A stretch of DNA of 64,000 nt from positions 15,583,905 through 15,647,904 of the forward strand of contig CM028335.1 in the NCBI GenBank assembly GCA_016647705.1, given 5' to 3'. Below, one piece after another: positions 9,790-63,658 of the stretch; within the stretch, counting starts at the first letter, position 1, and every line of letters starts with the position of its first letter. The stretch is from Eucommia ulmoides. Taxonomy: Eukaryota > Streptophyta > Magnoliopsida > Garryales > Eucommiaceae. Both the position numbers and the translations under genes were made by a program. The notes below the pieces were generated by a model that made no database searches, was not told where the DNA came from, and was given only the letters and a program-made list of their open reading frames with translations.

Positions 9790-10482
9790 TTACTCGGTAA
9801 CCGGTGACGGCGGACCAATTGGCCCTGCCTTTGTTCTGAACCAGTAAACCACTGGATCGTTCACGCAGCGGTGAAACAACGCTGGATCACCGGCTTCCTT
9901 CTCTTCCGTACACGCCATGCATGTAACTTGACCCTTCACGTCTCCAGTCGCCGGCGAAGAATCCTCCTCTTCCACAGTCGAAATTCGATTCACGGCTTGA
10001 TCGGAAGTTCTCATTAGGTATTTCTCTCTTTCAAACTCTAATTTCTGTACTCGATCGTTTAATCTCTGCAGCTCCATGGCCGAACAACTGGAAACAGGAC
10101 CTCGTGTGGCGTCCAAATCAGGCTGGGGAAGATTTGAATTTTCCGGCGCCGGAATCATGGCTTGATTGGAAGTTCTCATTAGGTATTTCTCTCTCTCAAA
10201 CTCAAATTTCGGCATCACATAGATATACCAATCTTTCTCACGAACTATGGCAGCGAAATCAACCTTCGCCGTGATCGCTATTTTCCCGTCACCCTCCTCC
10301 GCCCACAACTCCGACTTATCGTGAATAAGATAACTCAAAATCTGATTCGCCGGCATTCCGATCAACCGGCTCAACACGGACTGGTATGCATTGAACTTCA
10401 GCGACGGTCGAATTGGAAGGTTTCCGGCGTGAAACTCCTTCTCTCCGTCGAAGAACACCACCGGAAAAATAACATCCTCCAT
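9790..10482 (-). CDS. DUF7138-type plant protein, intronless and apparently intact
   Basis: A 230-residue protein if translated from the ATG at 10482. The frame stays open 33 codons further to 10581, but a TATA-like box lies between the two ATGs, so the inner start is preferred. The N-terminal part (FPVVFFDGEKEF, then a segment ending GMPANQILSYLI, then AITAKVDFAAIVREKDW) and the C-terminal part (CMAC near residues 188-191, then FHRCVNDPVVYWF and AGPIGPP) match the layout of plant DUF7138 proteins as I remember them. A short charged coiled-coil-like segment lies between. Biochemical function is unknown for the family; the C-x2-C and H-x-C residues could bind metal (inference). Oddity: a 17-residue segment, EFEREKYLMRTS flanked by a few residues, occurs twice (residues about 92-108 and 147-163). 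This is the only convincing intact gene in the window. Family call about 0.8, coding status higher. Confidence 0.82.
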   Translation of the reverse strand: MEDVIFPVVFFDGEKEFHAGNLPIRPSLKFNAYQSVLSRLIGMPANQILSYLIHDKSELWAEEGDGKIAITAKVDFAAIVREKDWYIYVMPKFEFEREKYLMRTSNQAMIPAPENSNLPQPDLDATRGPVSSCSAMELQRLNDRVQKLEFEREKYLMRTSDQAVNRISTVEEEDSSPATGDVKGQVTCMACTEEKEAGDPALFHRCVNDPVVYWFRTKAGPIGPPSPVTE

Positions 10483-10528
10483 CGAAAGGGATTGGAAAAA
10501 GCAGAGAGAGGATTTTGAGGTGAGTCGG

Positions 10529-10537
10529 AAAATATAA
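10529..10537 (-). promoter_or_regulatory. Putative TATA box of the DUF7138 gene
   Basis: Reads TTATATTTT on the minus strand, about 47 bases upstream of the inner ATG (10482) and downstream of the outer in-frame ATG (10581). This position argues that the outer ATG is not transcribed. Sequence evidence only. Confidence 0.4.
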
Positions 10538-10785
10538 GGCGGTGGGATAAGTAACAAGAACAAGAATGCATCAAGAATCATACTTGATAAGTATAATAAA
10601 ATTAAATGTTTTCATAATTATTTTTTTTAAAAAAAGAAGAAGTTAAAATTGAACTAAATGGGTAAGTTAGTCTATTTCATGGAAGATTGAATAAATTTTT
10701 TAATTTTATGTATTTTTAAATAAGAATATTTTATAATAGGCCCCAATACTCAAAACTAATTCATTCTTATACCTATCCACATAGT

Positions 10786-23386: not shown

Positions 23387-26300
23387 CTAGAACAATCCAG
23401 AATCCAGGTATAAATCAAACGCCCTTTTATCCATCTCTTGAGAAATAATATCTTCAATATTCGTAATAGGAGTGTCAAGAATCTTTAGGTTATAATTTTC
23501 CTTAGTACCCCTCTTAGTCAATATATCAACATAACGGTTAGTATCCCGAGGAGCAAAATGAAGGGTGTAGTTATAGAGTTGAAAAAGATATCTACACTCC
23601 TCAATCAAATCTCTGAGTTAGTGATTTTTAGGGCAAGTGTTTTGAATCAGTGTAACGGCCTCCGCCTAATCCGTCTCAACTAGAACTCTAGGATAATCTC
23701 TGTTTCCTGAAATTTTTATACCCGTGGCTATACTTTTTGAGTTCAACTTACAAAGCCATGCAATTGTCAATACTAGCATAATAGCCCAACTTTCAAGCTC
23801 CTAGGTTATCTCTAAGAAGACCACCTATGCCTCCTTTCTCAGGATTACCTTAAGCGCTACTATCCATGTTAAGCTTGAGGCATCCTGTTTTAGGAGGAAA
23901 CCAGAAAATGGTGAGTCTTTTAAAATCATTTGAGAAGTTTAGTTCTAAGATAGATTTTGACAGATCATTTGTGTAATTTATAATTTGCACAAGTGTAGAA
24001 ATTGGAGAATTACAAACTCCTTCAATATCCTCTTTATTTTTATCTTCCCAAATTTCCCAAGTAGTGGTAACAAAATTAAAGTAAGAGGGATTAAGGATAT
24101 TCCCTTCAAGTTTCTGCTTCAACCACGCCCAAAAATCCATAGAGGATTGGTTATACCTGAAATTAGAGCAACTAACTTGATCCCAAATATGGTTAGCTTT
24201 AGGATAAGTGCAAATAGCATGTTCAATAGTCTCCACCGCATTATTACATCTTTGACATCTACTAGAAATATTTCCACCATGAGTTGCACGTAAATAATTG
24301 GTAACAAGTCTTTTGTGAAAGATAAACCAGTAAAAAAAAATTTAAAGTTTTTAGGGATCTTCAATTTCTAAATCCAACTCCATCTATTATTAGAAGCTCT
24401 ATCATCATGTTTCGGTATACCCAGATGGTAAGCCGATCTAATAGAAAATAGCCGTGAATTATCCGACATCCACTGGAGTTTATCAATAAATTCGAAAGAG
24501 GGAGGATACATGGCCTTAATTTTTATTTTAGTATCAGTGTCAATAAGATGGAGGATAGGGTTCAGAAACCAGTTTCCATCGTCATCAACAATGTTAGCAA
24601 CTTTAAGATCAAAAGTATCCTGAATTTCCTGACACCCTAAAGATTTATCCCCACACCATTAGTATGTCCATAAGTTAGTAGAGGTACCATTCCCCTACCT
24701 TCCATTTAATACCTTTTTCTAAAATATTCTTAGCAAAGCAAATACCTCTCCAGATATAAGAACTACCATTTTTTTTTTTATCCAAGATTTAGGATTATTA
24801 TCAGTAGAGTATTTATTATGAATAACCCTAGCCCATAAACTTTGGTCGTTATTCATAATTTTCCAATCAAGTTTGGCCAAAAAAGCTTTGTTGTTAACTC
24901 TAGCTTTCCTAATACCCAAACCCTCTTCCTTCTTATTACGACAAACATTATCGCATTTAACGAGATGATATTTTTTCACATTATCCCTTTATCCCCATAA
25001 GAAATTCTGATTAACTTTATCAATATTATCACAAAATTTCAAGGGAATAGGGATAATTTGCATGGAATAATTATGGATGGTAGCAGTAACAAATTTAATA
25101 AGCGTAGTTCTACCAGCCACAAATAACATATTGATTTTCCACTTAGAGAGTCTACTATGAATTTTTTGGATAACACGATGAACATGAAGGTTATTTAGTC
25201 TCCCATGCACTAACGGGAAACCGAGATACACTCCTAAATCCTCCATGATACCAATATTCAAGTGATTAGTAATGTTTCTCGCTTTCCAACAGGGAATGCA
25301 AAGGGCAACATGTATTTTTGATTTAGCGAAATTAATTTTTTGTCTCATGACATGAGTAAAATTATTCAGAACATTTAAAATGTTATCAATTTGAGAATTA
25401 TTAGCTTTGGCAAACAGGACAAGATCATCAGCAAAAAACAAATGGGATATAATAGGACCACTTTTTCCAGCTATCAATCCTTTCCAGTTACCTCTATTCA
25501 TACTATCAACAATCAAGTGTGAGAGTCTTTTCATACAAAGAGTGAAGAGATAAGGGGATAAATGGCCCCCTTGCCTAAGACCCCTTGAGGGATTAAATTC
25601 CTCCAGGGGTTCTCCATTCCAAAGAATAGAGAGTGTGACATTAGTCACACAAGAAATAATCAAATTAACCCAAATACTAAGGGTATGTTTGATAAAAAAA
25701 AGAAAGAAAAAGTGCTTAAAACTGATTATATTAAGTACCTAATTAATTAAGTTTGTTTGATAAATGTAATTAGTATCACTTAATTAATTAAATTAACTTA
25801 AAAATTAAGTCAAAATGTGAGTGAAAAATTAAGTCAAAGCTCCTCCACTTATTTCATTTTACTTAATACACTCCATTATTTTTCACTTAAAAAAAAAATT
25901 ATGTTTGGCTATTTTACCCTTGATCCCCTATGAGGGTTTAATTAGGGTTCGGTTTAATGAGAATTGAATTAATTTTGGATTATTTTAAGATTTTAATTTT
26001 ATTTATATTTACATTATTATAATTTAATTTAAGTAATCAAACTGCATAAAAAAACACATAATATTATATATTTTTGGGTTAATTTTTACTTTTACTTTTA
26101 CTTTTAATATATATATATTTTTAAATGACACATTGATTTTATTATTTTGGTCTCAATTTTTCTCTCCATATTATCTTGATTCAAAGGTAGCTATGTAAAT
26201 TAAACAATTTTTAGCATACAAATTTTGTACTTATCAAACAAAAAAAATAAAAATAAAAATTCAGCACTTAAATTTTTAGTACAATTTTATTAAACAACCT

Positions 26301-39539: not shown

Positions 39540-42500
39540 CCTCAAACTCAAGATGGTAAATAGGAGGTTAATTTGAGTTTGGAAACCAAAGAGTGAAAAC
39601 GTCTAGGTAGATGAGTCTTAGTGAAAATGTCTACTGTTTGATCGACTGAACTGACGGATTGTAAACGAATCGTATTCTGGAGAATGTGATGACAGATGGA
39701 GTGACAATCAGTCTCGATGTGTTTTGTACGCTTGTGGAATACATCATTGTGAGCGATCTGAATAGCACTTATGTTGTCACAGTGTAGGATAGTGGCTGCA
39801 GAAGAAGAGATGCCCTTGTCAGCTAGTAGCCATTGAAGCTAGAAAAACTCTTGAGTTGCATCAGTCATGACACGATATTTAGCTTCAATACTGGAGCGAG
39901 AAACCACAATTTGTTTCTTACTACACCAAAAAATGAGAGAATTTCCAAAAAAAAAAACCCCAGTAACCAGTGGTTAAATGTCTATCGGTGGGGTCTCCAG
40001 CCCAATCGACATCAGAATAAGCTTGTAAGACGGGAGTAGACTGCTGAGAAATGAAACCCATGAAATAAAGTACCATTGACATACTGAAGAATGCGAAGAA
40101 CAACCGAGTAATAAGTAGTCTAAGGAGCGGACAAGATCTGATTGACCTAATGAATGGCATAGGCAATGTCAGGGCGAGTGACAGTAAGATATACAAGACT
40201 TCCAACCAGTTGGCGATATAGAATGGCATCCTGAAGAGGTAAATCATCGAGTGGGGTAAGTCTAACGTTCGACTCATGAGGAGTAGTGATAGTGGTTGAG
40301 TTAGTGATCCCAGCCTTGAAAATGAGATCAGAGACATATTTAGCTTGAGAGAGAAAATATCTATCAGAATCAGATGAGACTCCGAGGCTAAGAAAATAGG
40401 TGAGCACGTCAAGATCTTTTATCTCGAATTGGCCACTAAGAAATTTTTTGAGTTCAGAAATGCTACGTAAATCATCTCTAGTAATCACCATATCATCCAC
40501 ATACAGCAAAAGAAGGATAATACTGTTGGTAGTATGGCAAATAAACAAAGCTGAATCATGAGAACTAGGTGTGAACCCAAAACGATGAATAGTAGTGCTG
40601 AATTTACCAAACCAGGCACGTGGAGCTTGTTTCAAACTATATAGGGCACGACGAAGGTGACAAACTTTATTTCTAGGGACAACCAGGCCGAGATGTGTAT
40701 GCATATAGACTTCCTCAAGAAGATCACCATTGAGAAATGCATTTTTTACATCCATTTGAAAGAGAGTCCATTTTCGAATGGTGGCAACGACAAGAAGTGT
40801 ACGGACAGATGTCAGCCTCGCTACTGGAGCAAATGTCTCTTCATAGTCATTGCCATATTCCTGAGCGAATCATTTAGCAACAAGTCAGGCCTTATATCGT
40901 TCAACAGATCCATCAAAGAGCGTCTTTATTTTAAACACCCATTTACACCCAATAAGAGTTTTTCTAGGGGCAGATCAACAATATCCCAGGTATGAGTTTT
41001 AGCGAAGGCCTGAAATTCTTCATCCATTTCTTTCTGCCAAATGATTAGTATTAGCCTCTTTATAGGATTAAGGCTCATGCAGATGAAGTATAATGGAAAA
41101 ACAATAAAAATCAGTAAAGTAATGTGGACAATGAATTACCCTAGTAGAGCAGAAAGGGTGTTCTGGAGCGTGGGTCTCAGAGGCAGTTGGTACAGAATCA
41201 TCGCCCACAGAAGAAATCTCAGGTATGGTCGCTGGAGCTGGAGAAGTGAGATTAACTGGTGATTCTGGAGTGGGTTCAGCTGGTAGGTCTGGGGTGGACT
41301 TAGCATATGGTGTAGGGCTGGGCGCAACAGGTGGTGTTATAGTGGACTCAACAGTACCTGGAACTGTATCATCTGGAAATAACTCAATGGATGGATCAAT
41401 AAAGAATCTGAAGTTGGTAAGGGTTAACATGTCAAATGACCGTAAGGAAGAAAATATTTGATGTTCCCAAAAATTTACATGTTGCGAGATACGGAGGATT
41501 TTAGAAATGGGATCCCAGTTCCGATACCCTTTATGTTCGATGTCATATCCAAGAAAACAACATAGACAAGCCATTGGTTCTAATTTGTTGTGTTCGTGTG
41601 GTTTGAGAATAACAAAACAGGCACAACCAAAGACTCTGAGTTCAGAGTAATTAGGAGTTTTACCAAAAAGCCGTTCAAATTGAGACTGGTTTTGGATTGT
41701 AGCAGAAGAGACACGGTTTATTGTGTAGACGGCTATAAAGGCAACCTCACCTCAAAAATGCTCAAAACATGATGAACAAATGAGGAGAGCACGAAGTGCA
41801 TCAAGAATATGTCTATGTTTGCGTTTGGCTCGTCCATTTTGTTGGGATGTACTAGAACACGAGCGATGAGGGAGCGTGCTATTTTTGCGAAGCAGGTTAA
41901 GAAAAACACAATCCTTGTATTCCATTGCATTATTTGAGCGAAAAAATTTGATATTTCTAGAAAACTGGGTTCAAACCATAAAAGAAAACTCAGAGTATAT
42001 TTAGAATAGTTCGGATCGATGTTTCATAAGAAATAACCATGTATATCGAGAGTAGTCTTCCACAAAGATAATAAAGTAACGAAGGCCACCTGTTGAGGCA
42101 GGAGGAGAAGGCCCCCAAATATCAGAATGAATTAGATCAAATGGTACAAGGGAAAGAGATTAACTCTCTTTGAAAAGTAGGGCAGGTTGTTTTGCAAGTT
42201 GGCAATAGATACATTTGAAGGACTCATGTTGAACTGAACCTAACTGACCACTAGAGATAAGTGATTTGAGTCGGCTAAATAAAGTGTGGCCTAACCAAGC
42301 ATGCCACATTTGGGATAGTGAGAGATCAGCTGGTGGTTGTGGAGATAAGGATGAGGATACCGGTGGTGGTGGTGAGGTTGCACAGGTTGATGAAGGGACT
42401 TAGGTTTATGGTGGTGATGGAGTTGGAGATAGATAGTGTAAACTGGTAAGTTCAAATAGGCGTCCAACCTTACGACGAGTCCCAAGAGTTTCTCGTGTCC

Positions 42501-46000: not shown

Positions 46001-48458
46001 AGGACTCCTATTTTGATAAGTTAAAGTTTTAAAAGTTCCAAAATTATGATTTGCCCCCTAACATTTTTATTTTCGATTTCTAATTACCAATTTGAATCTT
46101 ATGTTTAAATTTTTGTGTTTTCCAAATTCCCGATTTGACCCCCAACTTTTGATTTGAGTTTTTATCAATAAAATTTTTACCCTAAAATCCTCTAACGTTT
46201 TATAATGCGACTATTTATGACGTACGTCTTGTAACTTGGGTTTTACAAATAGTGTGTTTCAGTGTGTGCATGTGATCGGACGAGTGTGTATTCTGTGTGC
46301 ACTGTGAGTGTGTGTTGATTTCACTGAAAACCAAACAAGACCGGTGGGCCTGTTTTAACCCTCACCGTCGACGTCGCCGGAGTTCGTGTGTGGGTTCTGT
46401 CCTGATGGGCTGGTGATTGTAGGAATGTATGGGTATGTGCATTCTGTTCGTCGTTGATGGTCGACAATGATCGTGTATGTGTGTCTTCGTTCAAATGTTG
46501 TGGGGGGTGTGTGCATTTTGTTAATCGTCGATGGTCATCAGTGATCGGTGTCGTCACCGTCTGTGTGTATGTTGCTGCTCTGTATGTGTGTTCGGTCGTC
46601 AATGGTATGGCTGTGTGTGTGTCGTCATGAGTGTGGGAGGTGAAACCAGCGTGTGTGTGTGTGTTTTGTCGCCGGCATGTGTGTGTGTGTGTGCTGTTTC
46701 GATAGCGTGTGTGGGTATGTATGTAATTGGGGGTGTTGTGCAACTGTGGGTGTGTGTGTCATTTGGTTGGACGGCGGGGTTGTGGGTGTTGTTCACGTGT
46801 CGCCGCCGGTGAAGGGTGTGAGGGGGTGTGTATGGCCGGACGACAGGAAGCCAAAACAGAAACAAGAAACAGAATGGAAAAAGGAAAAGAAAGAAGAAGG
46901 GAAAAAGAAGAAGAATAAATTACACAAATGACCCCAACAAATTCAAAATCCATCTTGTGACCCATGAACGATTCGGAATGGGTAACGTTTTTTCGTTAAG
47001 TTTATTTTAGTTTTGTTAAATTAAATTCGAGCATAAATTTTTTATAACCGGAATAATAAATTTGGGGACTGTTAAATGAAAAATTAACCAAATAATAATT
47101 TTACATAATAAAATATGGGGACGAAAAAATAACAAAAATTAGGGCCTACATTACACGATTAGGTGATTTTATATAAAATATTAATTTAGACCATGTCACT
47201 ATTAGGTTCGCAGGCACCGGAGTATCGGTAGAGGATAATCTATAAAAGCTGTTCGGAGCGGGTAACCAAGTGAGTGTACTGTCTTCTTGCCAAATCTATT
47301 TTCATATATATGATGGGAAAATGTGTTTATTAAAAAATGGGACGAATTTATAACTTATATGGATCAAGTGGATTTGGGTGTTTTAAAAATGTGAATTTCG
47401 TTGGTTTTTAAAGAAAAGTGGAAATAAATGATTTATTGAAATTAGTGGTTTTTTTTAAAGAAAGTAAAAAACATTATTTTTGAATTAAATCGGTTTTGGA
47501 GATAGAGGTCGATGTTATTGATTTGTAGTTTGACGATGTTGTTATTGATTTGGCGATGCTGTTGATTTTATCTGCTTTGACAGAGTATTGATTATTTATT
47601 GAGTTGTAATTTGATGATGATATTATTGATTTGATGATGTGGTTGAGTGTGGGCAGAGTTGTTGTGAGTGAGGTAGGGATGAGTTGTTGCTGTTGAGGTG
47701 AGATGGAGATTGATGTTGGATATTCAACCACTTGGTATAGTCCAGCGAAGCGGTGTTTCACCCATCTGGCATAGTCCAGCGGAGCGTTGTTTACCCACTT
47801 GGCATAGTCCAGTGGAACGTTGTTATGTCCCGCTAGGAAGACATATCCTACGGGTGGTACGATACCGTTGCAACTCCCGATCATGAGGTTAAAACAATCA
47901 CTATGGCTAGCCAGTGTGTGTTGTGGTGGAGTGGTGGTTTGAGTTGTGTGTTTGAGATGTGGTGTTTTACTTATATTAGGTGATTTATTATTTATTATGG
48001 TGATTGGTATGATTTTATACTAGATGGATTTGGATGGAACTTATCTATATCGCTTTATTTTTACTGCTTATATATTGGAGATTTTACAAACTATGTGGTG
48101 TTTATATACTTACGCTTGATCCATTTAGATGTTGTAGAATGATTTATTATTATAAAATATTTTTACTAAGAAGATAGTACACTTGTAGGTGGAGCAAATT
48201 TATAAGTCGGTCCCCTACTGGCACTAGTTAGAGTTATGCGTGTCATGCGATGGAGTCATATGGGAGTATTTTGAGACGGGCTGTCAGAGGTGAACCTAAG
48301 AGAGGTTTATGAGATTTATTTTGTTGTTCTTATTTTTGGGATGGGTGTGTCCCTATAGCATAAAATTGTCTTTTTATGAGTTGGTTTAACGGTCAGGTGA
48401 TGTCATGTCGATGTCACATCGGCCCCACGGTGACAGGTGTCTGGGGTGGGGTGTGACA
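43094..48458 (+). mobile_element. Gypsy 5' LTR, containing a nested solo LTR
   Basis: Starts TATAAGACTTGGACTTTAGC (mutated from TGTAAGACCCGGAC) and ends GGGGTGGGGTGTGACA before the PBS. Without the nested LTR and its duplication it is about 2.74 kb. 47705-47825 carries about three copies of a 35-bp unit containing 'catagtccagcggagcg', also present in the 3' LTR. Confidence 0.82.
43631..46247 (-). mobile_element. Solo LTR, Tekay/Del-like, nested in the gypsy 5' LTR
   Basis: 2617 bp. The minus strand starts TGTAAAACCCAAGTTACAAG and ends GGGGTGGGGTGTGACA. Perfect duplication AATAG at 43626-43630 and 46248-46252. It contains inverted copies of the 'cttcggcggagtgat' repeat (44290-44420) and CA-rich DNA (45110-45450). 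Open frames here are low-complexity artefacts. Confidence 0.85.
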
Positions 48459-48462
48459 ATTT

Positions 48463-48475
48463 TGGTATCAGGGCC
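48463..48475 (+). other. Gypsy primer-binding site
   Basis: TGGTATCAGGGCC, one base from the TGGTATCAGAGCC complement of initiator tRNA-Met, four bases after the LTR end. Confidence 0.9.
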
Positions 48476-49599: not shown

Positions 49600-50762
49600 G
49601 CCCTGAGAAATCGGGTCGTTATCATAAATTAGACTATCAACTCATGATTTACGTAAACCTGATGTGTTTTTTATATAAAGATTCGGTGTTGGGCATTCAT
49701 TGGTTAAAATGGATGGGTGGTTAAATCGATTGCAAAAGACTAGGGCGTTAGATTTTTTTTTTGAGTAGGGTATTCTCAGTTGAAGGTTAGAGACTGTGAC
49801 GTGTTGAAAACGGTGATCCGGTCGAGAGTAGAGAGAAGCATGTAGAACGTCTCCAGAATGTGTTGTTGATGCTGCAAGAAAAACGATTGTGTGCCAAATG
49901 CAATAAATATGAATATTGGTTGGATTGAGTGGAAAATTGGGACGAGTGCTCTTAAGACATAATATTCAAGTGAATCCAAAAAGAGTCGAAGTGGTGGGTT
50001 GATGGAATATGGAGAAGGCTGAGAACGCGTGACTGGAATCTGAAACTTGTGGAGTGGTAGTGATTATGGTTACCTTAACAACTTCACAATATTTCTGGTA
50101 TGACGGGATTTGTGCTTTGAGGCGAAAATCGAGAAAACGTGGTTGCGCATATTTGGGTTGCTTATACTAATGTATGGGTCAAGTTGAGATCCTTGTGAGT
50201 TTCGTTGGTAGTTGGTCAGATGACCACGTTATTCGAACTCGTGATGTGAAATCGACTTTGATCGATGGTGTGGTAGGAGCTCAGAAGTTGGATGTCTGGT
50301 TGGGAAGATTAGAAAGGAAGGAAATGGACAATGGTCACAGGACTGACTATCGTGTCAGAAATAATGACGAAATTGTAATGATTTGAAATAGATTGCATGT
50401 TTCTAATGATGCCCATATAACGGAAGAAACCTTAAAAGTGGTGCATAGTGCAATATATGTAATGTCGCGGTAATATCAACTCTATTAATATTGCGTGAGT
50501 ATTATTAGTAGATTTAAATGGAATTGGAAAAGCGCGACATTTGTTGTTAGGTGTTTTCTTTGGTTAAGTAGTAATATTCAGGAAGGTTATTATAACCTTG
50601 ACCTATTCCAGAAGGGAAAGGGGAGAGTAGTTCGAGGAATATTTTCTTGATGCATATGCCAAGTATATATATATTGACGGGATTGTTTGATTGCATGATG
50701 CACCAGTTCAATACAAATGTCGCACAAAAGTGGAAAAATAAAATAAAAATTTGGATGTTGAC
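49600..50762 (+). pseudogene. Gypsy pol remnant, first part: protease, reverse transcriptase end, integrase zinc region
   Basis: 49660-49740 reads KDSVLGIHWLKWMGG, matching the VILGMDWL segment at the end of a gypsy protease. 49830-49960 reads a KHVERLQNVLLML-like then KRLCAK.NKYEYWLD segment, the C-terminal part of the reverse transcriptase after the catalytic motif. 50174-50470 reads AQKLDVWLGRLE, EMDNGHRTDYRVRNNDEIVM and KVVHSAIY, the start of the integrase with its HHCC region. The reverse transcriptase catalytic core and most of RNase H are deleted. Many stops. The reading continues at 59442. Confidence 0.72.
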
Positions 50763-50766
50763 TTAT

Positions 50767-52351
50767 TGATAGGTGTAAATTACCTATGTATTTCCAATAT
50801 GAATTTGTTAGTTTTTGAGTACATTTATGGTTATTTTTATATGTTTTAATATATTTTTATTCTTTTTGTATTAAAATAGGTGCGTGGGGTGAAAAGGTGT
50901 GAAATCGGAGTGAAAACGATGTGATCGAACCAAAGCCGACGAAGTTACGGTGAATAAATGAGCAAGAAGGCAACATTGTGAAAGAAGCCCACCGCCTAGG
51001 CGTCCAGACCTTCGCCTAGGCTGTAAAGATTCTAAGAACATTTCCAAGTCCACCGCCTACTTCTTCGCCTAGGCGGTCACCAAACCTTCAAAGTCGGTAC
51101 AGGTGCTGTAACTTCAAGACTATTTTGGACTATGATGAAATTTGATTTTGGAAACACTCAAACCATGGAAGTTGTATATCTTTGTCGTATATTTCCATAG
51201 GTTTTTGAATCACCTCAATCGGAGTTTGGATGAAGAAGTTACAGTTAAAACAAAATTCAAACCTGCTGTAACTTCGCCTAGGCGAAAATTCGGTAGAAAG
51301 TTAACTGACCTAACTTTGCCTAGACGAAAACCTCTGCGCAGAATATATATTTTTGAGATATTTTTTGGCCTATTTATACCCTTTTCTCCTTCTCTCTTCC
51401 TTCTTCTTGAGCTCCTAAGGCCTTAGGCCATATTTTAGGGTTAGGATAAGGGATTTTTGAGGGAGAGCTCTCAACCCGAGGTGGAGGATCAATGAGGAAG
51501 CGATCGAATGACGTTTCTAGCGGCAAATCTTTAGATATCGGCTAAGTCGCTCGTTTCTTCTCTTTATTTTCTTCATTTTGGTAGTTGTTAAGCATGTTTA
51601 GCTCGTTTTACATTGTATAAACGGTTAGAGCCATGAGTTAAACATAGATTGTAATAGGGATTAACGTATTATTTATGAAAATGTAGTTTTGGTTGAATTT
51701 GTGTTTCGTTTATGGTTGTTCCTTATAATTTCGATTGTGTTTCCGTGTTTTCTATGATTATATGCTAGTTTATATATATTGAGAATATGGGATTTGGCAC
51801 TCGGGAGAGGTAACCCCGGATTCGGACTAGGGTTAACACAACATGACAATCTAACGACCCGGAAGGGCGTTAGAAAGTGTGCAATCAATAACGTTGGGGA
51901 GAGACTTACGTGACCTAGAGTCGTTAGGACATTGAGGAGGACTTCGACATTGACATGAAGTCACGTATTCTCCCATCTTACACTTGGAAGAGGTGGCGAG
52001 AGAGTTTACAATCCAAGATTGTCGGATACGCCGAACGCTGTTAATCTTAACTAAAACGAAATCAAACGCATTTAAATAAATAAAGTTAATCCTTAGGCAA
52101 TCTACTCTCCTAAACAATCTCAAATTAGTATTTATAGTATAGTTAACTTAATTAGTATTTTATTTTAGTATTAGTATTAAATTAAATTCTATTTTTAGCA
52201 CCTAGATAAAATTAGATTACGACAATCGCGACACTCGATAATAATCTCCACCAATCCCTGTGGATACGATACCCGACCGAAAGGTCCACTATACTAAAAC
52301 TTAATCCGTATGCTTGCGGTAAAAGTGACAGCACTTATTTAGCGGCCACCA
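50767..52351 (+). mobile_element. Left LTR (+) of the composite, Athila/Tat-like
   Basis: About 1.59 kb, TGATAGGTG...GGCCACCA, followed by spacer AGTTTT and PBS. It is related to, but clearly more diverged from, the three other LTR copies in the composite. It contains CGCCTAGGCG at 50993, 51066 and 51275, and the 'cactcgggagaggtaac' phrase of the family. Confidence 0.72.
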
Positions 52352-52357
52352 AGTTTT

Positions 52358-52405
52358 TGGCACCATTTCCGGGGATCGAACCCGGGTTACCTGCGTGACA
52401 GGTGG
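52358..52405 (-). other. Primer-binding site extended into about 45 nt of antisense tRNA-Asp
   Basis: The plus strand reads TGGCACCATTTCCGGGGATC and goes on through GAACCCGGGTTACC to GCGTGACAGG. This matches, with about five differences, the reverse complement of the 3' 45 nt (including CCA) of plant tRNA-Asp(GTC) as I remember it. An ordinary PBS covers about 18 nt. The match stops in the anticodon stem, and the 5' half of the tRNA is absent, so it is not a tRNA gene. Confidence 0.75.
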
Positions 52406-53308
52406 AAAAAGGGTGAAAATGTGCAAAGTCGGTACAGGTGCTGTAACTTCAAGTCTATTATTGACTATGATTAAATACTATTTTGGAACAACTTAAAACA
52501 TGAAAATTTTATATCTCTCTCTTAGCTTTTCATAGTTTTTTGAATCACCTCAATCGGAGCTCAGACGAAGAAGTTACAACCAAAACAAGAAAGTGCTTCA
52601 CGGCCTAGGTGGAAATAACTTCGCCTAGGCGAAGTAGAGGCAGAAAGTTAACTGACTTAACTTCGCCTAGGAGGAAATTCCTTTACCTAGGCGGATATTC
52701 CTTCGCCTAGGTAAAAATTTGGCAGCACCGAGATATTTTCTGAGATATTTTGAGTCCTTGTGCCTATCATTTTTCCCACTTCCCTAAGGATTTTGGATGT
52801 TTTGAGACCCCCTTTCACCATAGATAGGATTAGATAATTTAGGAGTAGATTAGATTAGTTTTAGGAAGTGTTCTTGGCCAAATCTTAAAGAGCTAAAAGA
52901 GGAAGATCATCAATGGCGAAGAGGAAGCTCGGGAGGATCGTTTTTTGGCGAAAGTGGACTACTCCACTTTGAGATTTGATTTTTCTTCCTTGGTTCCATC
53001 TTTATACTTAATGTTTATTATTGATGATGATGATATCCTCTTGATTTAATATTATAATGGCTAAGATCATGTTAGTTTAGTTAGATATTAGTTAGGGTTA
53101 GATATAATTCATGTAAATATCTCTTTGGTTGAATATAAGTTATTTTGATAGTTTGTTATCCAATTCCAATTGTGTTTACCGTTATTTCACATTTTTTATG
53201 CTTATTACGATAAGCTGAGAATTCGGGGTTTGACACTCGGGAGAGGTAACTCCGGATTCGGATTAGGGATAAACACAACACGACGATCCAATAACCCGGG
53301 AGGGAGTT
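52401..53308 (+). mobile_element. LTR fragment (+) following the tRNA-derived segment
   Basis: Starts GGTGGAAAAAGGGTG, about 140 bases into the LTR, and ends at 'cccgggagggagtt', well before the LTR end. It is the reverse complement, about nine bases in ten, of 53768-54662. Contains CGCCTAGGCG at 52622. Confidence 0.82.
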
Positions 53309-53316
53309 CAAAAACT

Positions 53317-54800
53317 TGGTAGCACGTGAAATACACCACTACTTACACTCGCAAGTATACTAGGTCAAAGTTTTAATATAGTGGATCGATTAAGAACGGG
53401 TTTCGTGTCCACAGGGAAAGTGTGAATAATTGAGTACCGCAATTTACGTAGTCTCATATTATCCTGACGATTCAATTTAATATTTAAATTAAACTAATTA
53501 AAACTACTCCTAAGAATTAATTTTAATTACACTAATTAACTAGGGATCGATTTCATTCACTTAGTATCTTTTTGTATTAGTTTAGTTATCAATAACGGTT
53601 ATTATCACATTGAACAATCTCGGTATCTATAACTCACTCGCTCCCTCTTCCGAGTGAAAAGCGAGCGAATACATGACTTCGCGTTAACGCCGAAGTCCCC
53701 CTTTAACACCTTTCCGAACACATAGTCACGTGAGTCTTGACCCAATCTCATGGATTGCACACAATCCAATTCCCTCCCGGGTTATTGGATCGTCGCGTTG
53801 TGTTTATCCCTAGTTCGAATCCAGGGTTACCTCTCCCGAGTATCAAACCCTATATTCTCGGTTTATCGTAATAAGTATAATAAACATGAAATAACGGAAA
53901 ACACAATTGGAATTAGATAACAAACCATCAAAATAACTTATATTCAACCAAAGAGATATTTACATGAATTATATCTAACCCTAACTAATATCTAACTAAA
54001 CTAACATGATCTTAGCCATTACACTATTAAATCAAGAGAAGATCATCATCATCAATAATAAACATTAAGTAAAAAGATTTAAACAAGGAAGAAAAATCAA
54101 ATCTCAAAGTGGAGTTGTCCACTTTCGCCAAAGAACGATCCTCTCGAGCTTCCTCTTCTCCATTGATGATCTTACTCTTTTAGCTCTTCAATATTTGGCC
54201 AAGAACACTTCCTAAAACTAATCTAATCTACTCCTAAATTATCTAATCCTATCTATGGTGAAAGGGGGTCCCAAAACATCCAAAATCCTTAGGGAAGTGG
54301 GAGAAATGATATAAATAGGCACAAGGGTTCAAAATATCTCAGAAAATATCTCTGTGTTGCAGGATTTTCGCCTAGGTGAATGAATTTCCTCCTAGGCTAA
54401 GTTAATTCGGTTAACTTTTTGCCGCTACTTCGCCTAGGCGAAGTTATTTCCACCTAGGCCGTGACACACTTTCTTATTTTGGCTGTAATGTTTTCATCCG
54501 AGCTCCGATTGAGGTGATTCAAAAACCTATAAAATTCTAAGAGAGAGATATACAACTTAAAAGTTTTTAGTTATTCCAAAATCGGATTTAATAATAGTCA
54601 AGATTAGGCTTGAAGTTACAGTACCTGCACCAGCTTTGCACATTTTCACCCTTTTTCCACCGTTTTCGCTCGTTTGCCTCTTGTTTGCGTCCCTACACCT
54701 GAATTATATAAAAACAGATTAAAAATAAATTAAATATAAATAAAACACTCAAAAACTACCAAATCCAGTTTAGAAGTAGATAGGTATTTTACACCTATCA
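53317..54800 (-). mobile_element. 3' LTR (-) of the non-autonomous Athila/Tat-like element
   Basis: 1484 bp. Starts (minus) TGATAGGTGTAAAATACC at 54800 and ends ...GTGCTACCA at 53317. It is followed on its own strand by AGTTTTTG, the spacer that normally follows the 5' LTR, not by a target duplication. About 92% similar by eye to the 5' LTR at 57952-59436. Confidence 0.82.
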
Positions 54801-54815
54801 AATACCCCCAAATTT
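54801..54815 (-). other. Polypurine tract
   Basis: Minus strand AAATTTGGGGGTATT immediately before the 3' LTR, preceded by 'gctcgaggactagtaaaat', a phrase typical of Athila/Tat elements. Confidence 0.85.
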
Positions 54816-57800
54816 GAAATTTTACTAGTCCTCGAGCAAAACACTAACACTAAACTAAACTAACTAATGAACTAACTAACTAAAAATGAAAAACTTAAAC
54901 ACAAAGGAAGTAAATGCATGTAAATATAAAGTTCAATCGAAAGGACCAATTTGTTCCTCCCTCAATATCCCTAAATCTCATCAAGTTCGGAAAATAACCC
55001 ACACCAAGTGGTGTTCTAGAATTTCAACGAACAATATCAATAAAAACCATTCTGGATCCATCTAAAGTGTGTGTGTGTGAGAACTCAAATGTATAACTAT
55101 GCAGATACCGGATTGGATTATTCAATTGTTAAGTTCATAACGTATACCGTTTAATGATTCAGGAAAACCATACGCTTGGTTGGGCTTGACTATCCACTAA
55201 TATAGGTTCGGATATTCACAGAGATCAATAGGGCTTGGTTTGGCTTTGGAGAATGACCAAGGGTATCATAGGAATAGAAAATAGCAAATCGGTTTAATTG
55301 ATTGATACCCGAGGTAAAATCGTTTGTCGCTATCCTCTCTCATAACCCCACACATTTAAAGTACAACTCTGAATGAGAATTAAAAATCCTTGTATTCACT
55401 TGTTGAAAGAAAAGAAAATGAAAACTATATTCACATTTTTTTTACAACACTTTCCTAAATTAATTCAAATTATTATAGTTTTAGGAGCGTGCAAAAGAAG
55501 TTAGAGAAACACACCCCCAAATTTATTTGAATTTATAAAATTTTAGGAATATGCAAAAAGATATGGCAGAAACACACCCCCCAAACTTATTTTAGGAGCG
55601 TGTGAAAAGAAATACTAAAGTGACAAGTGAATATACTAATACCGAGTCAATAAAGATTCATCCGAAACCCGACCACTCACTTGATTTCACTCAATTTAAA
55701 AATTAGGCTTAACGACATTGGGTTAGGAAAAATTTAAATGAAAAGAGTATTTGAACATTTTCAGAATTGATTACGTTATCGGTTTCAACAGGGGAAATAA
55801 AGGATGAAATTTTTTAGGTTAGCTACAACAGTTTAAGCGAAAAAATGACAACCTAAATCACGTCTCCGAAATTAACTTACCTAGGATTTCACCTCAAGTT
55901 TCCCCCAAATCAAGTTCTAGATTTCTCATTTTTGTAATAAACTTCATATTGAATAATCAACGTCTAATTGCTCAGATTATTATAAACTGAGTCCGAATGT
56001 CGTGCGGTTTTAGGATCAAGATAATTTTTACCCAATCGATATGTTAAGCACACAAAACACGCATGAAAGGCATTACCCCCGACCTCAATATGCAATTAGG
56101 GGATAATTCTCATCATCAGGACTTGGCCCAAATGAACTTAACAACTAAACAGGCAAATACAACTTCATACATATACTATTCTAAACTAAATCTAATACTA
56201 ACATACATACTAATCTAAAAACTACACATGCAAAAACAAAAATTAAACTAAACTAAACTAGAAATTAAAAGCTAAACATACATTAAAACATAAAATTAAC
56301 ATACATAAATATCCTTCTATACATCAAAAAAAATTGCATTTTGATAAAAAAAAAAATAATTGTTCATCATTTTCTACAAAAAAAAAAAAATCAAAATGGA
56401 TGAACATCCACTATACTAACATCCATTCCATCCCATCCAGGCCCGAACATGGCAGTGTTTAAGTATAAATCAACGAACCCAATAACATATAACATTTTTT
56501 TTTTTTTTTGAAAAAAATGGGTATAAACACATACCTAGGGAATAAGACGTAGAAGTCTCACCCCCTACCGTTCACTGGGAGGAAATTCATCTCCACCACT
56601 ATTACATCAGAATGGATATTGTAGCGGTTGCAAAAAGTGTGGCGGCAATGCCGAAGCGGTCGCACATGAACCTATGGATTTGATCTGGCACACACACTAA
56701 TCACAACGTTTCAACAAAATATGAACGATGTAGCATGCAATTTTGTTTCAAACAATTTAACAATCCATAGAAACTAAGTTATCACCAAAAATCAAACCAA
56801 AATCCCAAAGTGATGAAGAAAATCGCGAAAATGGGGTTGAAAATTGATTTGTGGTGGAAATCGCAAATTTTGTAATATGGAAGGATGATTAAAAGCTATT
56901 GGAACGGTTTGGTTGAGAGGGTTTCGAAATTTGGAAGGTTGAAAGGCCATTTTATGAAGGGGAAGGGTTCTCTTTTTAAAAACTTTCTGATGCTAATTCA
57001 CCTAGGCGGTGGTTTTTTCGCCTAGGCGAAGTAACACCTTTTTGTTTAAAGACCTTTCTGACATTTGTTCGCCCAGGCGGTGGTTTCTACGCCTAGGCGA
57101 AGTTACGCCAGTGTGAAAAATATTGGGTTCTGACGTTAATCCACCTAGGTAGTGGTTTTTCCACCTAGGTGAATTTACGCCAGTGTAAAAACTCAGCCAA
57201 CTACACTATTTCTGCTTAGGCGGTGGTTCTCCGCCTAGGCGGTGGTTTCTCCGCCTAGGCGAAGTTACACCAGTGTGAATTTTGGCTGGATTTCTTCATG
57301 TTTTCACAACTTTTCTCTACGCCACTTACTTCCACTTCGTTCCTTAAACGGTTTTTTAGCACAAAACACAACCCTAAATATCCAAACTCCTAAATTCACT
57401 TCCGAACACGTTCCGAAGCCATGCCGGTTTCCAAAAAGAATAAATAATTAAATAAATAGTAGCAAAAATCGAGCAACTTGATACCCTGAGTTTCATTTAA
57501 AAAAAAATTGCGCTTGAGTTACCGTCCCCAGCTAGACTTTCGTGTGGCTAAACATTTTTCACCAAAATTCCCTATAGACAAGGTATTTGGGCTCAAATGC
57601 TCTGTTGGATCAAGATCATGGCTTGAAGTCGGCTTCTCATCTCTGTCCTTATCATTTTCAATATAAACTCGATCTCAAGATTGAGAATTAAGAATTCCAA
57701 TCTTCTTCATCGTTTCTCGCACGGTTCTCATCTCTGTCCTTATCATTTTCAATATAAACTCGATCTCAAGATTGAGAATTAAGAATTCCAATCTTCTTCA

Positions 57801-57928
57801 TCGTTTCTCGCACGGCTTAATCACACTAACACAATGAAACAAAAATAAAAATTAAAAATAAAACAAAATAAATGTCATGATTAACATTCGACCACTTAGT
57901 CGCAATATCAACTTAAAATTCACACAAT
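54816..57928 (-). other. Internal region of the non-autonomous element, no gag or pol
   Basis: 3.1 kb without a recognisable protein domain in any frame, so the element depended on proteins of an autonomous relative. The part near the PBS (57000-57261 on the plus strand) carries at least four CGCCTAGGCG palindromes and repeated 'gaagttacrccagtgtgaa' phrases. 55430-55610 repeats 'agaaacacaccccc'. A perfect 91-bp duplication lies at 57634-57815. Confidence 0.75.
57634..57815. repeat. Perfect 91-bp tandem duplication
   Basis: 57634-57724 and 57725-57815 are identical, each starting TTCTCATCTCTGTCC and ending TTTCTCGCACGG. Confidence 0.97.
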
Positions 57929-57945
57929 CCCCAGTAACGACACCA
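57929..57945 (-). other. Primer-binding site of the non-autonomous element
   Basis: Minus strand TGGTGTCGTTACTGGGG(ATTG), a mutated version of TGGCGCCGTTGCCGGGGA, the tRNA-Asp-type PBS found in Athila/Tat elements, after spacer AGTTTT. Confidence 0.82.
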
Positions 57946-57951
57946 AAAACT

Positions 57952-59436
57952 TAGTAACGCGTGAAATACACCGCTACTTACACTCGCAAGTATACGAGGT
58001 CAAAGTTTTAATATAGTGGATCGGTTAAGATCGGGTATCGTGTCCACAGGGAAAGTGTGAATAATTGAGTACCGCAATTTACGTAGTATTATATTATTCT
58101 AACGATTCAATTTAATATTTAAATTAAACTAATTAAAACTGCTCCAAAGGATTAATTCTAATTACACTAATTAACTAGGGATCGATTTCATTCACTTAGT
58201 ATCTTTTTGGATTAGTTTAGTTATCAATAACGATTATTATCCCATCCAACAATCTCGGTATCTATAACTCACTCGCTCCCTCTTTCGAGTGAAAAGCGAG
58301 CGAATACATGAATTCGCATTAACGCCGAAGTCCCCCTCGAATGCCTTTCCGAACACATAGTCATGTGAGTCTTGACCCAATCTCATAGATTGCACACAAT
58401 CCAACTCTTTCCCGGGTTATTGGATCGTCGCGTTGTGTTTATTCCTAGTCCGAATCTGAGATTACTTCTCCCCGAGTGTCAAACCCTGTATTCTCGATTT
58501 ATCGTAATAAGCATAATAAACGTGAAATAACAGAAAACACAATTGGAATTAGATAACAAACCATCAAAATAACTTATATTCAACCAAAGGGATATTTACA
58601 TGAATTATATCTAACCCTAACTAATATCTAACTAAACTAACATGATCTTAGCCATTGCAATATTAAATCAAGAGGCGATCATCATCACTAATAATAAACA
58701 TTAAGTACAAAGATGGAAACAAAGAAGAAAAATCAAATCTCAAAGTGGAGTAGTCCACTTTTGCCAAAGAACGATCCTCCCGAGCTTCCTCTTCTCCATT
58801 GATGATCTTTATCTTTTAGCTCTTCAAGATTTGGCCAAGAACACTTCCTAAAACTAATCTAATCTACTCCTAAATTATCCAGTCCTATCTATGGTGAAAA
58901 GGGGTCTCAAAACATCCAAAATCCTTAGGGAAGTGGGAGAAATAATATAAATAGGCACAAGGGTTCAAAATATCTCAGAAAATATCTTTGTGCTGCCGGA
59001 TTTTCGCCTAGGTGAATGAATTTTCGTCTAGGCGAAGTTAAGTCGGTTAACTTTTTGCCGCTACTTCGCCTAGGCGAAGTTATTTCCGCCTAGGCCATGA
59101 CACGCTTTCTTGTTTTGGCTGTAACTTCTTCGTCCGAGCTCTGATTGAGGTGATTCAAAAACCTATGGAAAACTAAGAGAGATATATACAACTTCCACAT
59201 TTTGAGTTGTTCCAAAATAGGATTACATCGTATTCAAGAATAGGCTTGAAGTTACAACACCTGCATCGGCTTTGCACATTTTCACTATTTTTCCACCGTT
59301 TTCGCTCGTTTGCCTCTTGTTTGCGTCCCTACACCTGAATTATATAAAAGAAAAATAAAAATCCATTAAATATAAATAAAACACTCAAAAACAACCAAAT
59401 TTGATTAAGAAGTAGATAGGTATGTTACACCTATCA
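57952..59436 (-). mobile_element. 5' LTR (-) of the non-autonomous element
   Basis: 1485 bp, the right end of the composite. Minus strand starts TGATAGGTGTAACATACC at 59436. Contains CGCCTAGGCG at 59067. Followed to the right by the target copy CTTAT. Confidence 0.82.
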
Positions 59437-59441
59437 CTTAT

Positions 59442-61026: not shown

Positions 61027-63004
61027 TGTAAGACCCGGACTTTAGCATGTATGTCATTATTTTCAATTTAGAGCATTTAGAAAAATTTCAGGGTAAAAAA
61101 TTGAGTTGATTAAAAACCAAATTAAAAATTTATGGGTTAAATTTGCAAAATTGTCAATTAAAATCTAAAAATTTAAAATATGAAGGGTGAAATTATAATT
61201 CTAGAAACTCATAAATGTTGAATTGAACTAAAATGAAGATTTTAAGAAATTAGGGGGAAGGGAAGAGTATTTAGCACATGGGTCTTTATATAAACTCATA
61301 TATATAGACACATATTCGTGCGTGTGTGTGCAGTGAGGGCCGAAGACAGAGAGAAGAGAACCGGCGATGTGGCATGAAGAGATCAAACATCCATCCACTT
61401 AATTCATGCATATATATAGGATTCATTCACACTAGAAGGATCGGGAAAACTTAAGAAGAAGAAACTCAGAAATCTAGAGAGAAAAGAAGATAATCGGAGT
61501 GTGTACTGTTCATTAAATTTATTTTAGTTTTGTTAAATTAAATTCTAGTATAAAAATTTTGTAACCGAAATAATAAATTTTTGGAATGTTAAATAAAAAA
61601 TTAACCGAATAATAATTTTACATAATAAAATGTGGGGACAGAAAAATAACAAAAATTAGGGCCTGCATTACATGATTAGGTGATTTTATATAAAAAATTA
61701 ATTTAGGTCATGTCACTATTAGATTTGCAGGCACCAAAGTATCGGTAGAAGATAATCTGTAAAAGATGTTCGGAGCGGGTAGCCAGGTGAGTGTACTGTC
61801 TTCTTGCCAAATCTATTTTCATATATATGATGGGAAAATGTGTTTATTAAAAAATGGGACGAATTTATAACTTATATGGATCAAGCGAATTTGGGTGTTT
61901 TGAAAATGTGAATTTCGTTGGTTTTTAAAGAAAAGTGGAAAGAAATGATTTATTGAAATCAGTGGGTTTTTTAAAGAAAGTGAAAGACATGATTTTTGAA
62001 TTAAATCGATTTTGGAGATAGAAGTCGATGTTATTGATTTGTAGTTTGACGATATTGTTATTGATTTGATGATGTTGTTGATTTTATCTGTTTCGACAAA
62101 GCGTTGATTATTTATTGAGTTGTAGTTTAATGATGATATTATTAATTTGATGATGTGGTTGAGTGTGGGCAGAGTTGTTGTGAGAAAGGTAGAGATGAGT
62201 TGTTGCTGTTGAGGTGAGGTAGAGATTGGTGCTGGATATTCACCCGCTTGGCATAGTCCAGCGGAGCGGTGTTTCACCCGTCTGGTATAGTCCAACAGAG
62301 CATTGTTCACCCGCATGGCATAGTCCAGCAGAGCGTTATTATGTCCCGCTAGGAAGGCATATCCTACGGGTAGTACGGTACCGTTGCAACTCCCGATCGT
62401 GAGGTTAAAACGATCACTATAGCTAGCCAGTGTGTGTTGCGGTGGAGTGGTGGTTTGAGATGTGGTGTTTTACTTATATTGGGTGATTTATTATTTATTA
62501 TGGTGATTGGTATGATTTTATACTAGATGGATTTAGATGGAACTTATCTATATCATTTTATTTTCACTGCTTATATACTAGAGATTTTACGAACTATGTG
62601 ATGTTTATATACTTACACTTGATCCATTTAGATGTTGTAGAATGATTTATTATTATAAAATATTTTACTAAGAAGGCAGTATACTTGCAGGTGGAACAAA
62701 TTTATGAGTCGGTCCCATACTGGCACTAGTTAGAGTTATGCGTGTCATGCGATTGAGTCATATGGGAGTATTTTGAGACAGGCTATCAGAGGTGAACCTA
62801 AGAAAGGTTCATGAGATTTATTTTCTTATTCTTATTTTTGGGACAGGTGTGTCCCTATATCAAAAAAATTTGTATATGTTGTACAGATGATTTTATATTG
62901 TTTTATGTATATTGTCTTTTTATGAGTTGGTTTGACGGTCAGGTGATGTCATGTCGACGTCACGTCGGCCCCACGGTGACGGGTGTCCGGGGTGGGATGT
63001 GACA
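61027..63004 (+). mobile_element. Gypsy 3' LTR with an internal deletion
   Basis: 1978 bp, TGTAAGACCCGGACTTTAG to GGGGTGGGATGTGACA. Collinear with the 5' LTR except that about 0.75 kb is missing at 61510-61515, where sequence matching 43570-43575 jumps to sequence matching about 47000. The 35-bp 'catagtccagcggagcg' units recur at 62240-62340. Confidence 0.85.
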
Positions 63005-63658
63005 AAATCGGTCAAAAAAGGCCTGAACTGGTCTGAAAGAAGTTACCTAAAAAAAAAATGGGAAAGTGGCAGAGGCTTGCTGAGTGGTACTGACGTGGCG
63101 GTTAACGGAAGATGTGGCGATCAAACGCACTGACGTGGCACTGACAAGTCACTGATGTGGACCTGCTGTGCGCCACCGTAGCGCTGACGTGGCTTACGTG
63201 ACTGAAGAAAAGAGGTTAAAGATTGCCGGCACGTGGATCTAGACTGTAGGGATTTCAGGCCACGTGTGTGGGCATGTGCGGTGTCGTACGATCTTGATTG
63301 TTGCATTGTTTGAATCGTCTCGTTGATACGGTTCCGATGGTATATCGTGAGGTGAATTTGGAACCCTGGTTGAGGCGGTAGAGCCCAAAATTTGAGACGA
63401 CGAAGAGTGGTGGTACTGCTGGCTGTTGGAGGTGCGTGAGAGCGCGTATGGACTTTGGTGGCGGTGATTTTGGTGGAGTTATGTTCGTCTATGCAAGACG
63501 AAGTTGGTGGTATGATATTTGTTGATACCGGAGAAGGGATAAAGCCTGCAGTAGCGGCGAAAGTCTCAGGAGAATATGGGCGACGACGGCGGCGAAAGCG
63601 TTAGGGTTGTGAAAATTTTATTGAGAACCGATCCAGGAAATACTTGCTCTTGATACTA
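63005..63658 (-). other. Copia leader/gag-side remnant right of the gypsy insertion
   Basis: The PBS next to the LTR reads (minus) GTATCAAGAGCAAG, close to the initiator-Met type. Repeated 'tgacgtgg' and 'actgacgtggca' phrases occur at 63090-63195. No gag protein can be read; the minus frame at 63121-63306 is unrecognised. Confidence 0.55.

Follow-up and report, generated by a model that had tools for sequence, protein, structure and literature searches.

How can a single retroelement insertion present the same kind of long terminal repeat (LTR) end to the chromosome on both of its sides? This question is raised by a composite block in the genome of Eucommia ulmoides, which occupies positions 50767-59436 of the 64,000-nucleotide stretch analysed here (the window; assembly GCA_016647705.1, contig CM028335.1, positions 15,583,905 to 15,647,904 of the forward strand). 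Both outer ends of this one block are U3 ends, reading TGATAGGTGTAA inward from 50767 (plus strand) and from 59436 (minus strand). We consider it probable that the block is a heterodimer of two complementary DNAs (cDNAs) from related non-coding LTR retrotransposons, A and B, that were joined by their U5 sides before integration, leaving U3 on each side. That the composite was integrated by its two U3 ends is well supported. It is made up of the following parts.

50762-50766, unstranded: left copy of the target-site duplication CTTAT (sequence, empty site)
50767-52351, plus: LTR_A, full length, TGATAGG...CCACCA, with its U5 end set by ordinary copies that have target duplications
52352-52357, plus: spacer AGTTTT between the LTR_A end and the primer-binding site (PBS) (sequence)
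52358-52376, plus: PBS of 19 nucleotides (nt), complement of the tRNA-Asp 3' end including CCA (tRNA comparison)
52377-52405, minus: tRNA-Asp copy continued, with T arm, variable loop and anticodon arm with GTC (Rfam, annotated tRNAs, alignment)
52401-53308, plus: F, a piece of LTR_B positions 140-1033 (alignment)
53309-53316, minus: retained unprocessed U5 tail of B, AGTTTT plus TG, reading CAAAAACT on the plus strand (sequence, ordinary copies)
53317-54800, minus: 3' copy of LTR_B, LTR_B3 (sequence)
54801-57945, minus: internal region of B (sequence)
54801-54815, minus: polypurine tract (PPT) of B, adjoining the 3' LTR (by eye)
57927-57945, minus: tRNA-Asp PBS of B (tRNA comparison)
57952-59436, minus: 5' copy of LTR_B, LTR_B5, whose U3 start is the right outer end (sequence)
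59437-59441, unstranded: right copy of the target-site duplication CTTAT (sequence, empty site)

The block is well supported as a single insertion, because CTTAT stands on both sides of it and its flanks are continuous at paralogous sites. The chance that two 5-mers agree in flanks of this composition is 0.0017. For the paralogous sites, we joined the left 118 nt (with one CTTAT) to the right 115 nt, giving an empty-site query of 233 nt. This query matched 11 other genome places at 86-94%, over positions 1-233 or all but one or two end bases, all of them paralogous sites and not an orthologous allele. Target lengths were 223-248, and the closest matches were 94% on C59, 93% on C14, 92% on C71, and 91% on C1 and C4. 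The window's own halves matched query positions 1-118 and 113-233; the rest of the 50 matches listed were partial or below 80%. The terminal motif TGATAGGTGTAA, of 12 bases, has a third copy at 54800 (minus strand), the start of the inner 3' LTR of B, and no further copy was found in the window at up to one mismatch. A first-pass annotation of the window had read the block as bracketed by CTTAT with inverted LTR starts at both ends, and had proposed the empty-site search; the sequence bears out the reading, and the search succeeds with paralogues. It had also drawn on a Gypsy integrase reading on both sides as support for one insertion. Pfam found no integrase domain in the flanks, and that argument now stands on the duplication and the paralogous sites instead.

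A different history would be two ordinary insertions rearranged after integration, by inversion, deletion or recombination, with CTTAT on both sides by chance. Nesting and recombination of LTR elements are common in plant genomes, and Sabot and Schulman (PMC1950507, Table 1) list 20 recombinant against 2 template-switching complexes in ~7 Mb. The low chance of a 5-mer match, the continuous paralogous sites and the recurrence of such joints in the genome all speak against this history, as do an unprocessed LTR tail and a tRNA copy that are absent from sampled integrated U5 ends. We regard it as very improbable.

When were A and B joined? The inner U5 end of B keeps AGTTTTTG past its CA, comprising the AGTTTT spacer and two PBS bases, TG; CAAAAACT at 53309-53316 is the reverse complement of this tail. 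As a comparison we used genomic copies of LTR_A, with 40 places listed of 7916 candidates and 27 of the 39 others fetched, not all of them different elements. The U5 end was readable in 22 of these 27 and not found in the other 5. Six of the 22 run into spacer and PBS, as 5' LTRs, and 14 end in CA against other DNA. Nine of these 14 are single LTRs, flanked by perfect 5-bp duplications in six cases and by duplications with one mismatch in three; the other five follow a PPT. Ordinary copies therefore end in CA against the duplication, which means that integration removes AGTTTT. The remaining two of the 22 (L007, the same locus as L009, and L010) are unprocessed and joined to an inverted LTR. 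Because the inner end of B keeps AGTTTT and TG, which are lost in the sampled integrated copies, it is well supported that A and B were joined while the DNA was still unintegrated. The joints of L007/L009, L010, L036 and L048 likewise retain spacer and PBS bases.

Inverted LTRs in one molecule could likewise result from autointegration, the attack of a cDNA end on a second cDNA within the particle, which is known to generate inverted DNA in retroviruses. Integrase joins at the processed CA, and the joint here lies 8 nt past CA at B and in a tRNA copy at A; a joint at CA without spacer, as autointegration needs, was not seen in the block. We give this route very little credence.

Two further sets of unprocessed ends came to light. 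In L010 (C2:13821404-13831403, at 2300-2420), a post-PPT 3' LTR is cut near 1536 and joined to an inverted LTR that keeps AGTTTTTG; near this joint AAGTTTT is seen by eye to be shared, a feature of snap-back priming. In L030, L037 and L049, unprocessed U5 ends with AGTTTTTG abut DNA with no apparent resemblance to LTR or PBS.

The A side of the block carries a second mark of reverse transcription. Beyond the 19-nt PBS, complementarity to tRNA-Asp runs for a further 24-29 nt, to 52400-52405; the last bases, GGTGG at 52401-52405, are ambiguous, as they can be assigned to the tRNA copy or to F. Positions 24-71 (the 3' half) of the Rfam tRNA model match 52361-52404 on the minus strand with an E value of 0.088 for 53 bases and 17.2 bits, which is below the family gathering score of 29. 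The match was seen only after trimming: Rfam found no tRNA in a longer 401-nt stretch at E up to 10, and ARAGORN found none in the window. Support also comes from a phage collection, in which 42 records match a 47-nt query and tRNA-Asp is annotated under 9 of the 15 listed, including the top 7, which cover nt 2-35 of the query at 88-91% identity. An alignment of 48 nt to the sequence that we take to be the plant tRNA-Asp reference has 6 mismatches, including one within the ambiguous GGTGG. By the same assumed reference, 29 of 31 distinct PBS sites in the fetched loci leave the tRNA at nt 19; only the window and L033, which had been preselected by its joint, continue past it. Because the tRNA match of other copies stops at nt 19, the stretch beyond it is most likely a copy of the primer molecule and not part of the element.

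Longer complementarity of this kind is also found elsewhere. At 103 genome places, an LTR/spacer end and PBS are followed by at least 11 nt more of tRNA-Asp complement (0-3 mismatches, 6 exact; reversed control 0). These are pattern counts only, the first listed being C2:29299806-29299839, and could be explained either by frequent read-through of the primer or by a family whose PBS is longer. One such place, C9:40153675 (minus strand), lies 37 nt from a U5 end at C9:40153622 (plus strand). Tandem U5-PBS motifs ~63 nt apart occur in L047 (29 and 93) and L064 (1884 and 1947), and a second motif begins in several other loci.

Between the tRNA copy and the tail of B lies F, which differs from both B LTRs by an insertion of 20 nt and the loss of 6 nt. 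It is 91.0% identical to LTR_B3 and 90.2% to LTR_B5; the two B LTRs are 91.8% identical to each other, and LTR_A is ~66% identical to any of the three. The internal region of B has no open reading frame (ORF) of 70 amino acids on its coding strand, and B must therefore depend on enzymes made elsewhere. At 888 compared sites, private changes number 41 in F, 33 in LTR_B3 and 40 in LTR_B5 (P = 0.61). We dropped this equality as proof that all three came from one cDNA, as many genomic B copies are equally distant from F; it excludes only that F is a later copy of LTR_B3.

These results refine the first-pass annotation in several respects. Its LTR boundaries at 53317-54800 and 57952-59436 fit the sequence, and the four-segment alignment that it proposed yields the identities above. 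Its plus-strand LTR-PBS unit stands as far as the LTR and PBS are concerned, with what follows the PBS being a tRNA-Asp copy rather than the continuation of an ordinary PBS. A joining of U5 to U5 before integration holds for the timing and the side involved. It is not direct in the window: the copy of the tRNA-Asp 3' half and the 0.9-kb LTR_B piece lie between A and B, and the joint at B is an unprocessed U5 end. The proposal that a linear molecule with two U3 termini was integrated is supported by the CTTAT duplication, the retained tail and the paralogous sites.

Is this architecture confined to one locus? The pattern GCCACCAAGTTTTTGY occurs at 49 genome places, against none for the reversed control. 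We fetched 20 of the 24 places ending in C. Most of these (13 of 20) are ordinary PBSs with base changes, and two are U5:U5 palindromes, AGTTTTTG/CAAAAACT (L036, the same locus as L050, and L048). In L033, U5 is joined to the sense 3' half of tRNA-Asp from position 31, leading into an inverted LTR; in L042, it is joined to an apparent inverted internal start (by eye). The other three (L030, L037, L049) have U5 joined to other DNA.

A pattern for facing U5 ends, CCAAGTTTTTN{0,20}AAAAACTTGG, occurs at 26 places, against 1 for the control. The ends are separated by 1 nt in nine cases, 2 nt in eight and 3 nt in two; four have 6-9 nt between (PBS-like forms) and three have 13-18. Allowing 21-51 nt adds five places (control 1), three of which we inspected: C9:2815584 has tRNA-Asp from about position 42 at the joint, and the other two are not U5:U5 joints. 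Flanks were fetched for 13 of the 26 places (L009 and L050-L061). Five join two whole elements, with both arms after a PPT (L052, L053, L054, L057, L060), three join a single LTR to an arm with a PPT (L055, L056, L058), three join two single LTRs (L009, L050, L061), and the arm type is ambiguous in L051 and L059. In the 11 of 12 joints (L050-L061) that aligned, the arms are of different families, with aligned pieces 68-87% alike. The same class of joint, mostly without the tRNA piece, thus occurs elsewhere in the genome, and the architecture that the first-pass annotation had singled out as unusual is not a one-off. Its suggestion to look for other loci with inverted ends is answered by L050, where two single LTRs with two U3 ends are bracketed by a perfect 5-bp duplication.

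Both outer U3 ends could be located in five composites. The duplications agree at 5 of 5 bases in the window (CTTAT/CTTAT) and L050 (GTTAG/GTTAG) and at 4 of 5 in L056 (GATCC/AATCC). A short fixed-length duplication at both termini, the hallmark of an integrase-type event, is therefore present in the window at full length.

Recurrence also bears on whether the block is an assembly artefact made by misjoining inverted LTR copies. Inverted repeats are hard to assemble, but an artefact should not carry a flanking duplication with paralogous empty sites, or tRNA bases at its joint, or recur at many loci, and the arms of the fetched joints come from different families. We judge such an error highly unlikely. 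In sum, post-integration rearrangement, autointegration and assembly error were rejected, each on the evidence given with it.

Beyond the joints of L055 and L058, the right arms pass into additional LTRs (L063, L064). These adjoin a PPT at U3 and a PBS at U5, and appear to be shared-LTR multimers.

What made the joint? Its type is informative here. All joint counts are raw numbers of exact matches, uncorrected for how many matching ends the genome holds. The U3:U3 pattern TTACACCTATCAN{0,20}TGATAGGTGTAA occurs at two places with U3 ends facing away, C7:16942881-16942914 (10 bp between) and C10:19121346-19121374 (5 bp between); in the latter, one element seems to have inserted at another's duplication. 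The U5:U3 pattern CCAAGTTTTTN{0,20}TGATAGGTGTAA occurs at 11 places, with spans of 26-39 nt, where a direct joint would span 22-25; none of the 11 has 0-3 nt between the ends and one has 4. Spans of 28-30 nt account for 9 of the 11; the one place that was read, of 29 nt, proved to be a changed PPT.

Joining by the host would offer another route to the block: in the nucleus, a pair of completed linear cDNAs would be ligated through their blunt U5 ends, and the dimer then integrated by two U3 ends. Such ligation would account for U5:U5 joints that vary by one or two bases, and 2-LTR junctions of HIV with unprocessed U5 and PBS or tRNA-primer sequence have been described (PMC5618025). If ligation were random, U5:U3 and U3:U3 joints would be expected as well, yet the counts above include none with 0-3 nt between the ends. 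Furthermore, the tRNA copy requires plus-strand synthesis into the primer, and F requires an extra joint. We therefore hold host end-joining to be a possible but rather unlikely origin.

We favour reverse transcriptase as the agent of joining, passing from the 3' end of one plus strand onto that of another, for two reasons: it is the primer-bearing end to which the joints are specific, and three of them (the window, L033 and C9:2815584) contain a copy of the primer. Plus-strand synthesis on A would have run through U5 and PBS and continued within the tRNA-Asp primer up to the anticodon stem, as the copy in the block suggests. The 3' end on the A side would then have been connected across GGTGG to the LTR_B piece, presumably by a template switch, and this piece to the 3' end of the B plus strand, which still had its unprocessed AGTTTTTG. 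B would have been copied from there to its U3 start. Lastly, insertion of the two U3 ends by integrase at staggered positions of the target would have produced the 5-bp duplication; the use of integrase is suggested by this duplication and the continuous paralogous sites.

Several observations weigh against this account or parts of it. Switching by reverse transcriptase is likely rather than proven: the F-B joint has no bases in common, which fits end-joining, and U5 ends joined blunt would produce identical palindromes. F need not, on sequence comparison, come from the same cDNA as B, because many B copies are as near to it and it has its own 20-nt insertion and 6-nt loss; among the 40 matches listed genome-wide, LTR_B3 is 14th and LTR_B5 33rd in nearness to F. 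On the A side, the lone LTR could have arisen later as a solo LTR and need not be strong-stop DNA. Some of the 103 places with longer complementarity may belong to a family with an inherited longer PBS, and the nature of ten of the 11 U5:U3 places rests on span length. The outer-end duplications of L009 (ATCCC/ATCAT) and L061 (ACAAC/GTAAC) are weak, at only 3 of 5 bases; agreement of 3 of 5 or better is expected by chance in 14% of cases, and of 4 of 5 or better, as in L056, in 2.3%.

More broadly, recurrence at about two dozen other places makes the joint look like a repeated side route of retrotransposon copying. There is an even chance, in our view, that U5:U5 dimerisation of cDNA is a regular by-product of reverse transcription in the tRNA-Asp-primed elements of this plant, arising when removal of the tRNA primer or the stop at it fails, with integrase taking two U3 ends and not two U5 ends, and with two-family heterodimers having been inserted in large numbers, each as a single block.

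The insertion itself lies within a pair of direct repeats.

46992-48459, unstranded: left host-flanking repeat of the direct pair, probably an LTR (sequence comparison)
61509-63005, unstranded: right host-flanking repeat of the direct pair (sequence comparison)

These repeats are 88.4% identical, against 91.8% for the B LTR pair, as expected if the host is older. The left one is followed (about 48455-48475) by TGGTATCAGGGCC, which we take to resemble a tRNA-Met PBS; the host is accordingly probably an LTR element in plus orientation, judging from this motif. Within the internal region of B, a perfect 91-bp tandem duplication (57634-57815) is present although the B LTRs differ by 8%, and is probably younger than the insertion. 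A palindromic motif, CGCCTAGGCG, and its variants are repeated at 50990-51330, 54360-54470, 56980-57280 and 59000-59110, in the LTRs and internal region of these elements. Elsewhere in the window, minus-strand ORFs encode domains of Copia-type RVT_2 (40150-40869), RVT_1 (24992-25738) and DUF7138 (9793-10611).

If the heterodimer account is true, the block is natural chromosomal evidence that the integrase of an LTR element can complete integration with two U3 ends. It would also be a fossil record of reverse-transcription steps that normally leave no trace, namely an unprocessed U5 terminus (spacer and two PBS bases) and read-through of the primer tRNA past the usual stop. Moreover, it would provide a one-step origin of large inverted LTR pairs, which are possible sources of small-RNA hairpins and possible fragile sites. 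The asymmetry between U5:U5 and other joints can be checked in any plant genome by sequence search.

How does the block compare with known systems? It has the features of LTR retrotransposons: TG...CA LTRs with 5-bp duplications and a tRNA-Asp PBS a few bases past the LTR. By PBS and LTR features, the elements appear to be Athila-like Ty3/gypsy. In the Athila lineage of Ty3/gypsy (PMC1142308), Diaspora and Calypso have a tRNA-Asp PBS 5 bp past the LTR end, comparable to the tRNA-Asp PBS 6 nt after CA here. The same source gives an LTR of ~1.5 kb for Athila1-1, similar to ours, and 5-bp duplications in the lineage. Unlike that lineage, B has no coding region, and the internal region of A is absent from the block.

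Neither U5:U5 composites nor the inverted form appeared among the open-access literature matches listed, as judged from titles and the starts of abstracts. The nearest relatives are the complex LTR retrotransposon insertions that Sabot and Schulman (2007; PMC1950507) attributed to template switching in Triticeae, rice and maize. As in our block, two element units were inserted together within a single 5-bp duplication, and an error of reverse transcription before integration is the explanation. In those complexes, however, an internal LTR is common to the two units and the outer LTRs are highly alike; here the arms are inverted and share no LTR, and LTR_A is 66% identical to LTR_B5. The complexes would have one U3 and one U5 outer end, in contrast to two U3 ends in the block, where an unprocessed U5 tail and a tRNA copy connect the inverted units.

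Retroviruses offer parallels for single features. Retroviral 2-LTR junctions (PMC5618025) also show an unprocessed U5 end and primer-derived bases at the LTR joint, but they are U5:U3 circles, whereas the block is a U5:U5 heterodimer in a chromosome. An HIV provirus with reverse-transcribed tRNA-Gly beside its 3' end (PMC12220202) resembles the block in having a copied tRNA on proviral DNA, although there it is not the priming tRNA at a U5:U5 joint. Finally, the integrase of Rous sarcoma virus (RSV) has been assayed in vitro for concerted integration with U3 oligonucleotides (PMC10209032). That assay concerns the concerted joining of U3 ends of short DNAs, whereas the block is a natural chromosomal product; it makes integration by two U3 ends biochemically plausible.

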